Shown here in pieces: positions 1-2,709 of a DNA stretch of 44,286 nt (the first letter of the stretch is position 1; each line of letters opens with the position of its first letter). Source of the DNA: Microbacteriaceae bacterium (GTDB taxonomy: Bacteria; Actinomycetota; Actinomycetes; Actinomycetales; Microbacteriaceae); the NCBI GenBank assembly GCA_025464815.1, contig JAODMW010000127.1, forward strand, positions 1-44,286, in the 5' to 3' direction. A program made the translations under genes and the position numbers. The notes below the pieces were generated by a model. The model did not search any database, was not told the DNA's origin, and worked only from the letters and a program-made list of their open reading frames with translations.

Positions 1-2709
1 CACGACCGGCGTGCCCTCGGCGAGCGCGATCGTGGCGAGCGCGATCGCCCGCTCCCGCTGGGGCAGCTCGGTGAGGGTCGAACCGGCGCCGACGGCGACG
101 GCGTCGGATGGCGCGACGTCGGCCAGCACCGAGTTGATCCTGGCGATCCAACCGTGCGCTCGTCGGCGTCCGCGCCAGATCCGGTGCCACGGCTGCGTGA
201 GGCGGAGCCGTTCGTCGAGGAGTTCGCCGAGCGTGACCGAGGTCTCCGCTCGCTCGAGGCCGCCGACATCCGCCATCGCCACGAGACGCGCGACCCTCGC
301 TGATTCGGACGGCAGGGGATGCCCGGCAACCTGCAGGCGGCCGGCAACCGGATCGAGACGGCCGGCCAGCGTGGCGGCGGCGAGTCGGCGATCGCTGGCG
401 TCGCCGCTGGCGAGCACGAGCGCCCCGACCGGCACTGACAGCTCGATCGGTCCAACCCTGTGTGCGTCGGATCCTGCGTAGAGCCCCTCGGCGCTGATCG
501 CCTCACCGCGCTTGTCGACGGCCCAGACCACGGCTTCGCGGTGCTCACGCAGATGCTCGCCCTCGATGTCCATATCGGGCAGGAGCTTCTGCAGCCACTT
601 CGGCATCCACCAGGCGGCCCGTCCGAGCAGGGTCATGATGGCGGGCACGAGGGTCATCCGCACCAGGAACGCGTCGAAGGCGATGCCGACGGCGAGGCCG
701 AGGGCGATCGGCTTGATGGTGCCTGAGCCCTCCGGTACGAATGCGAAGAAGACGAAGAACATGATGAGTGCGGCCGCGGTTACCACCCGTGCCCCGTTCG
801 CGAAGCCCTTCGCCACGGACTGCCGTGCGTCGCCGGTCCGCACGAACTCCTCTCGCATTCCGGAGACGAGGAAGACCTCGTAATCCATTGCGAGCCCGAA
901 CAGCACGGCCATGAGGAGGATGGGCATGAAGCTCAGGATCGGGCCGGGGTTCTGGACGTTCAGGAGGTCACCGAGCCATCCCCACTGGAAGATCGCCACC
1001 ACGACGCCGAACGACGCGACCACGGAGAGCAGGAACCCGAGCGCGGCTTTGAGCGGGACGAGCACCGAGCGGAACACCATCATGAGCAGGATGATGGAGA
1101 GCCCGACGACGATCGCTCCGAACGGGACGAGTGCGCCGGTCAGCCGGTTCGAGATGTCGATGCCGACCGCGGTCGCTCCCGTCACGGAGATGGGGGTGTG
1201 ATACTGCTTCTGGATGTCCGGCCCGAGGTCGCGAATGGACTGCACGAGGGCCTTGGTCTGCGGAGCGTCTGGTGCGCTGGACGGGATCACCTGGATGATC
1301 GCGGTGTCGAGTCCGGCATCCGGAAGCCCCTGGCTCACGTAACTGACGTCGCCGAGCGTCTTGAGCTTCGTGGCGATCGCCGCGAGATCGGGCTGGATGT
1401 CGGTGGTCTGGGTGATGTCGACGGCGACGATGAGCGGTCCGTTGTATCCGGCGCCGAAGCCATCCTTGATCATCTCGTAGGCCTGGCGCTGGGTGGAGCC
1501 CTTGGGTTCCGATCCGCCGTCGGGGAGGTTCAGGTCGAGGCTCATGGCCGGAATGGCGAGCGTCCCGAGCACGGCGACGACCGCGAGGGTGGCTAACACG
1601 GGGCGCTTCATCACGCCCTTGACCCAGCGCAGGCCCATGGTCGGCTTGCTGCCTTCGTCGTGAACCATGGCGCGACGGTAGGCGCGCGATCCGGGCTTCG
1701 GGGTGAGGCGCCCCTTGGCCAGGCCGAGAAGTGCCGGTACCAGAGTGGTGGCGACACCGATGGCGATGAGCACCGCGAACGCGGCGCCGACCCCCATGAC
1801 GCTGAGGAAGGGGATGCCGACGACGAGCAGTCCGAGCAGCGCGATGATGACGGTGACGCCCGCGAACACCACGGCGCTGCCTGCCGTGCCGACCGCGATC
1901 GCCGCCGACTCCTCGGGATCCTCGCCTGCGGCGAGCTGGTTTCGATGCCGGGACAGGATGAAGAGCGAGTAGTCGATGCCGACCGCGAGACCGATCATGA
2001 GGGCGAGCAGCGGAGCAGAACTCGACACCGTGGTGAAGGCGGAAATGGCCGTGATGCCCCCCATGACGATACCGACGCCGATGAGAGCGCTCAGCAGCGG
2101 CATGCCTGCCGCGACGAGCGAACCGAAGGTCACGAGCAACACGACCGCGGCGAAGAGGAGCCCGAAGACCTCGGTGATGGTGATGCCGAAGGTGTTGTCG
2201 GAGAACACCTGTCCGCCGAAGGCGACGGTCATTCCGGCCTGCTCGCCGATGGATGCCGTGTCCTTGAGCTGTGTGATCGTCGTAGCCGTGACATCCGTCG
2301 AGGCCCCCGTGAACTGGATCTGGGTGCGCGCCATCCGCTCGTCGGTGGTGATCGAGCTCCCCGCATACTCGGAGAACGGGCTCACGACCGAGTCGACGCC
2401 GCCGATCTTCCCGATCGCGGCATCCATCTTCTCGATCGCGGCCTTGTAGGTCGGATCGTTGACGGATGCGCCGGCCGGAACCTCCACGACCGCCTGGGCA
2501 CTCGCACCCGCAACCGCGGGGAACACCGCATCGAGCCGGTCGAGCGCGTTCTGCGACTCCGTGCCGGGGATCGCGAAGGACTCCTGGGTCTGGCCGCCGA
2601 GAGCGATGCCGCCGCCGAGAATCCCGACGAGGAGGAGCAGCCAGACGCCGATGACGGTCCACGAGCGGCGGTAGGCGAAACGCCCGAGGCGGTAGAGGAG
2701 GGTGGCCAC
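1..2709 (-). CDS. MMPL/RND-family exporter with C-terminal ABC-like extension (3' end outside window)
   Basis: The true frame is not in the ORF track, because it runs off the window edge; I translated it by hand. It starts at GTG (VATLLYRLGRFAYRRSW), 8 bases after GGAGAA and 2 bases after the tetR stop, and stays open for 903 codons. Residues up to about 710 are a standard two-lobe MMPL exporter: each lobe has an extracytoplasmic loop and a block of helices, with the RND-type GLAVGIDYSLFILSRHR and GLAMDYEVFLVSGMREE motifs. Such proteins export lipids or drugs using proton motive force. After MDIEGEHL, about 190 further residues resemble an ABC ATPase that has lost its Walker A lysine (GDASDRRLAAATLAG) and has TELPQRERAIALA where LSGGQ is expected. 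It forms an operon with the upstream TetR regulator, which probably represses it. The exporter call is firm; the ABC-like reading of the tail is inference. Confidence 0.9.
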   Translation of the reverse strand, partial: MATLLYRLGRFAYRRSWTVIGVWLLLLVGILGGGIALGGQTQESFAIPGTESQNALDRLDAVFPAVAGASAQAVVEVPAGASVNDPTYKAAIEKMDAAIGKIGGVDSVVSPFSEYAGSSITTDERMARTQIQFTGASTDVTATTITQLKDTASIGEQAGMTVAFGGQVFSDNTFGITITEVFGLLFAAVVLLVTFGSLVAAGMPLLSALIGVGIVMGGITAISAFTTVSSSAPLLALMIGLAVGIDYSLFILSRHRNQLAAGEDPEESAAIAVGTAGSAVVFAGVTVIIALLGLLVVGIPFLSVMGVGAAFAVLIAIGVATTLVPALLGLAKGRLTPKPGSRAYRRAMVHDEGSKPTMGLRWVKGVMKRPVLATLAVVAVLGTLAIPAMSLDLNLPDGGSEPKGSTQRQAYEMIKDGFGAGYNGPLIVAVDITQTTDIQPDLAAIATKLKTLGDVSYVSQGLPDAGLDTAIIQVIPSSAPDAPQTKALVQSIRDLGPDIQKQYHTPISVTGATAVGIDISNRLTGALVPFGAIVVGLSIILLMMVFRSVLVPLKAALGFLLSVVASFGVVVAIFQWGWLGDLLNVQNPGPILSFMPILLMAVLFGLAMDYEVFLVSGMREEFVRTGDARQSVAKGFANGARVVTAAALIMFFVFFAFVPEGSGTIKPIALGLAVGIAFDAFLVRMTLVPAIMTLLGRAAWWMPKWLQKLLPDMDIEGEHLREHREAVVWAVDKRGEAISAEGLYAGSDAHRVGPIELSVPVGALVLASGDASDRRLAAATLAGRLDPVAGRLQVAGHPLPSESARVARLVAMADVGGLERAETSVTLGELLDERLRLTQPWHRIWRGRRRAHGWIARINSVLADVAPSDAVAVGAGSTLTELPQRERAIALATIALAEGTPVV

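Follow-up and report, generated by a model that had tools for sequence, protein, structure and literature searches.

The MMPL gene and its C-terminal tail

The window analysed here, a stretch of 44,286 nucleotides from a Microbacteriaceae bacterium, is an entire contig (C193) of an assembly that comprises 294 contigs and is 81% complete. A gene encoding an MMPL-type exporter with a C-terminal extension runs off its left edge. The features of interest are:

2709 to 1, minus strand: MMPL-fusion gene, initiated by GTG at 2709 and cut off by the contig start, with 903 residues visible
598 to 2709, minus strand: MMPL/RND exporter part, residues 1–704, with a PF03176 match (269 bits) and proton-relay Asp-Tyr pairs
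1 to 597, minus strand: C-terminal tail, residues 705–903 (199 visible), beginning WLQKLLPDMDIEGE; linker helix and degenerate ABC nucleotide-binding domain
523 to 597, minus strand: linker, WLQKLLPDMDIEGEHLREHREAVVW, the first part of which is the ordinary MMPL C-terminal end
385 to 405, minus strand: Walker A place, GDASDRR where GxxGxGKT is expected, from the alignment and the model of relative L040
34 to 72, minus strand: ABC signature place, TELPQRERAIALA where LSGGQ is expected, from the alignment
1 to 15, minus strand: GTPVV, with which the Walker B strand begins; the motif residues themselves fall past the contig end
2712 to 3287, minus strand: TetR-family regulator (PF00440, 41.5 bits), just upstream of the MMPL start with 2 bases between

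The exporter part passes the PF03176 (MMPL) gathering score of 20.5 bits. Like MMPL/RND exporters such as MmpL3, it matches this family in both halves, carries Asp-Tyr proton-relay pairs and has a cytoplasmic C-terminus, but it falls far under the cut-off of the MmpL3 model itself (206 versus 1400 bits). The relay pairs, GIDY and AMDY, lie in the membrane helices and are invariant among 28 aligned sequences, the window's included, so the pump should be active. MMPL proteins use the proton gradient to drive the movement of lipids or other molecules. What distinguishes the window protein from these exporters is the presence of an ABC-type domain beyond the normal MMPL end; unfused MMPLs from Streptomyces, Dactylosporangium and Rhodococcus terminate about 30 residues past the start of the shared linker.

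The contig end truncates the tail, which is about 65 residues short relative to complete copies. A second copy of the gene is present in the same assembly, on contig C43 (L008, 1–1611), and is either a paralogue or derived from a second strain within the assembly. Its DNA matches the window's at 92% identity where the MMPL parts overlap and at 85% in the tail. Given that the window's gene sits at a contig end in a fragmented assembly, the fusion might in principle be an artefact of assembly or of reading frame. The chance of this is negligible: the same open reading frame occurs in dozens of other assemblies, single-contig genomes among them, and we rejected an assembly artefact because the same fusion is found in so many other genomes.

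The tail as a degenerate ABC domain

Pfam returned no match to the tail even at E 10, the gathering score of ABC_tran (PF00005) not being reached, and an NCBIfam scan gave nothing significant. Fold and profile methods were therefore needed. A profile built from 19 tails, searched against all PDB sequences, had hits that were nearly all ABC ATPases (best E 2e-5), co-linear over positions 50–236. When hhalign compared the tail profile with a free-standing relative whose Walker A is intact, the probability was 99.4% and E 3.6e-21. We also modelled the complete tail of L040, a close relative whose tail is 83% identical to the window's, with AlphaFold2 using an input alignment of 35 tails (mean pLDDT 90, pTM 0.88). 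A Foldseek search of this model against the PDB yielded 982 matches at E ≤ 0.001, and the best 50 were all ABC proteins (best E 2e-10, probability 1.00). A full-length model, of modest confidence (pLDDT 80, pTM 0.69), was used solely to place the tail behind the last membrane helix. Together, the PDB profile search, the hhalign comparison and the fold search place the degenerate strings at the motif positions beyond chance.

The relatives that score best, both Walker-A-bearing and free-standing, have among their nearest named ABC ATPases the ABC-2 exporter ATPases DrrA and NodI. These have the same fold and the same order of motifs as the tail; the window tail differs in lacking the Walker A and signature, and in being fused to a proton-driven exporter, whereas ABC-2 ATPases serve an ABC permease alone. 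Nine MMPL fusions from other actinobacterial families keep GxxGxGKT, and all five of those tested score above the Pfam cut-offs of MMPL and of ABC_tran alike within a single reading frame. On this combined evidence the window tail is, in both fold and ancestry, an ABC nucleotide-binding domain without catalytic residues. The original prediction, made from the DNA letters, had described an MMPL exporter with a degenerate ABC-like domain past its normal end, a Walker A-like string without lysine and a further string in place of the ABC signature. Both strings lie where it had put them, and the predicted structure of the relative, proposed there as a check, is ABC-like and not of an unrelated fold.

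Within the window's group (n = 42), the Walker A lysine has been exchanged for arginine in 41 members and the next residue is arginine in 35, a pattern that indicates conserved replacement and not random decay. The L040 model has a strand at residues 60–64, a two-residue turn at the place of the P-loop and then, beginning at residue 67, a helix; on this model the phosphate-binding loop is nearly gone. LSGGQ is missing in the window and in free-standing relatives, and one member of the window's group (L075) retains LSSGQ. No histidine was seen at the H-loop place across the group; the C43 copy reads LVIGTPI there (the window's own lies past the contig end), and L101, a fusion with an intact Walker A, has the histidine. 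The Walker B aspartate is retained in 35 of the 42 and the glutamate that follows it is replaced. The original prediction had looked to the gene outside the window for a Walker B. This was partly answered: both L040 and the C43 copy have VVVLNQLD at that place, with asparagine for aspartate, and the contig stops short of the window's own motif.

In a second group of MMPL fusions (L029–L038, L109, L112, L113, L119 and L120), the Walker A is lost and the helical subdomain that bears the signature has also been deleted, so that what remains is an ABC core of reduced length. Catalysis has been lost outside the fusions too, as free-standing versions are frequently degenerate. Two candidates were set aside: L089, an ordinary ABC ATPase with SSGQRR and no adjoining YhgE/Pip gene, and the first ABC match in L083.

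Association with YhgE/Pip and history of the fusion

Downstream of the MMPL gene in the C43 copy, and overlapping it by 4 bases, lies a gene of the YhgE/Pip family; the window contig ends before any such gene, and the operon is thus seen in the C43 copy and in relatives. The downstream gene passes both YhgE/Pip models (TIGR03061 and TIGR03062), matches ABC-2 permease families and is the only YhgE/Pip gene assembled in the window's assembly. Among 36 named loci, mostly from Microbacteriaceae, YhgE/Pip lies downstream in 35, the exception (L074) being at a contig edge. The TetR gene lies upstream in 33; L050 is cut, and L073 and L075 gave no match. The tail is present in all 36, cut by the contig end in L074 and frameshifted in L064. 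The latter and L054, in which the reading frame of the MMPL part is interrupted, may reflect sequencing errors or pseudogenes.

In further loci (L083–L121), YhgE/Pip follows every family member with 3′ sequence, MMPL-fused or free-standing, and no MMPL match was found around the free-standing members within the 9–12 kb stretches examined. We also surveyed the association in reverse, from 43 actinobacterial YhgE/Pip loci sampled across class and family. An ABC-like reading frame lies directly upstream in 41 of these, with a Walker A that is intact in three, has arginine for lysine in ten and is unrecognisable in 28; the weakest of these upstream matches (E 1e-4 to 1e-9) need caution, and several degenerate ones have no Pfam match. 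The adjacency of YhgE/Pip to fused and free-standing members alike, together with this survey, indicates that the tail is no stray ABC domain: it is the pseudo-ATPase that partners YhgE/Pip, joined to the MMPL gene ahead of it. Across the sampled loci (L123–L135, L144–L173), an ABC-like protein with a lost or altered Walker A precedes most YhgE/Pip genes. This points to pseudo-ATPases as the partners of YhgE/Pip at many actinobacterial loci; they seemingly form an undescribed family.

A tree of the MMPL part places all 40 fused proteins on one side of a branch with 100/99 support and the six unfused ones, five of them found via the shared linker motif, on the other. The window's group forms one clade, and the fusions with an intact Walker A fall outside it, beside the short group without Walker A. 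A tree of the ABC domain alone has an uncertain root and several long branches and leaves the number of fusions unsettled. Judged from these sequences, an intact domain was probably fused to an MMPL once, and on the simplest reading the Walker A was lost at least twice afterwards.

For nine pairs, dN/dS was 0.13–0.45 in the tail versus 0.06–0.24 in the MMPL part, and in most pairs the rate in the tail is roughly double, as would be expected of a relaxing domain. All nine tail values are far below 1, which points to purifying selection on the tail, though in most pairs the pump is the more strongly constrained. A domain that has lost catalysis and yet is kept on a proton-driven exporter, as originally proposed, fits the missing motifs, the invariant relay pairs and this selection. 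Its faster evolution and the deletion of the helical subdomain in one group could also mean that the tail is a functionless, decaying remnant of a past fusion. With low dN/dS throughout, a confidently predicted fold and a tail at every named locus, we regard this as improbable.

Proposed role of the tail

ABC domains beside ABC-2-like permeases normally dock to them from the cytoplasmic side. We propose, with a probability of about 0.55, that the pseudo-ATPase tail docks on YhgE/Pip and ties the proton-driven MMPL to the permease in one export complex. Docking appears the most likely role because the dead tail is still folded and conserved, sits on the MMPL C-terminus and is translated together with the permease. 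The ABC partner of the YhgE/Pip ABC-2-like permease joined the C-terminus of the MMPL encoded just ahead. The tail has shed its ATP-binding and hydrolysis residues while retaining its fold, and by docking on the cytoplasmic face of YhgE/Pip it could hold pump and permease in a single complex energised through the pump by the proton motive force and not by ATP. A lipid or another envelope molecule would be a candidate substrate that suits an MMPL. As a bolder and more tentative extension, the complex may be a hybrid exporter in which YhgE/Pip has swapped ATP for the proton motive force and the dead ATPase on the MMPL serves as a mechanical coupler.

Of the regulatory and docking roles that the original prediction had left side by side, we infer that the evidence favours docking on YhgE/Pip. 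An autoregulatory domain would sense a ligand or partner and open or close the pump without being fixed to YhgE/Pip. The covalent connection through a conserved linker helix would suit such a domain, and the conserved lysine-to-arginine exchange could mean that the altered site binds something. Free-standing domains, however, adjoin YhgE/Pip with no MMPL match in the 9–12 kb examined, so the link to YhgE/Pip is likely to be the older one, and we consider a purely autoregulatory tail unlikely. A still lower probability attaches to a tail that remains nucleotide-dependent, whether through a rewired site or by pairing in trans with an active nucleotide-binding domain. Degenerate sites in heterodimeric ABC exporters are well documented (for example in PMC12038006), and the Walker B aspartate is widely kept in the window's group. 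Against this stand the lost Walker A, the near absence of the P-loop and the missing signature in the window's copy, and the 81%-complete assembly yielded no family member beyond the two fused copies. Heterodimeric exporters such as BmrCD, TAP and MsRv1273c/72c resemble the present case in that an ABC domain with an impaired site is kept; they differ in that an active partner site remains, whereas none was found for the window tail, and the host protein of the tail is not an ABC transporter.

Export machines driven by ATP (ABC) and by the proton gradient (RND/MMPL) are normally separate. Here, a catalytically dead, conserved ABC engine domain sits on a proton-driven exporter, and one operon encodes both systems. 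To our knowledge, YhgE/Pip proteins have no agreed transport function, and a conserved MMPL and pseudo-ATPase partner offers a testable route to their function. Searches of the open-access literature brought up neither an account of an MMPL that carries an ABC domain nor one of an ABC-like partner for YhgE/Pip; earlier descriptions of either in subscription journals may exist. Of the members described so far, the phage infection protein Pip and EsaA come from Firmicutes, where they act in phage adsorption and type VII secretion; no function is reported to be known for the YhgE/Pip domain (PMC4999554). The gene downstream of the C43 copy resembles them in its matches to the YhgE/Pip models and differs in having an ABC-like upstream partner, which the papers found do not describe.

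In two loci (L014 and L015), the extreme C-terminus of the tail has FDATAFDATTFDSTVFDSTAFDS-type repeats, the number of which differs.
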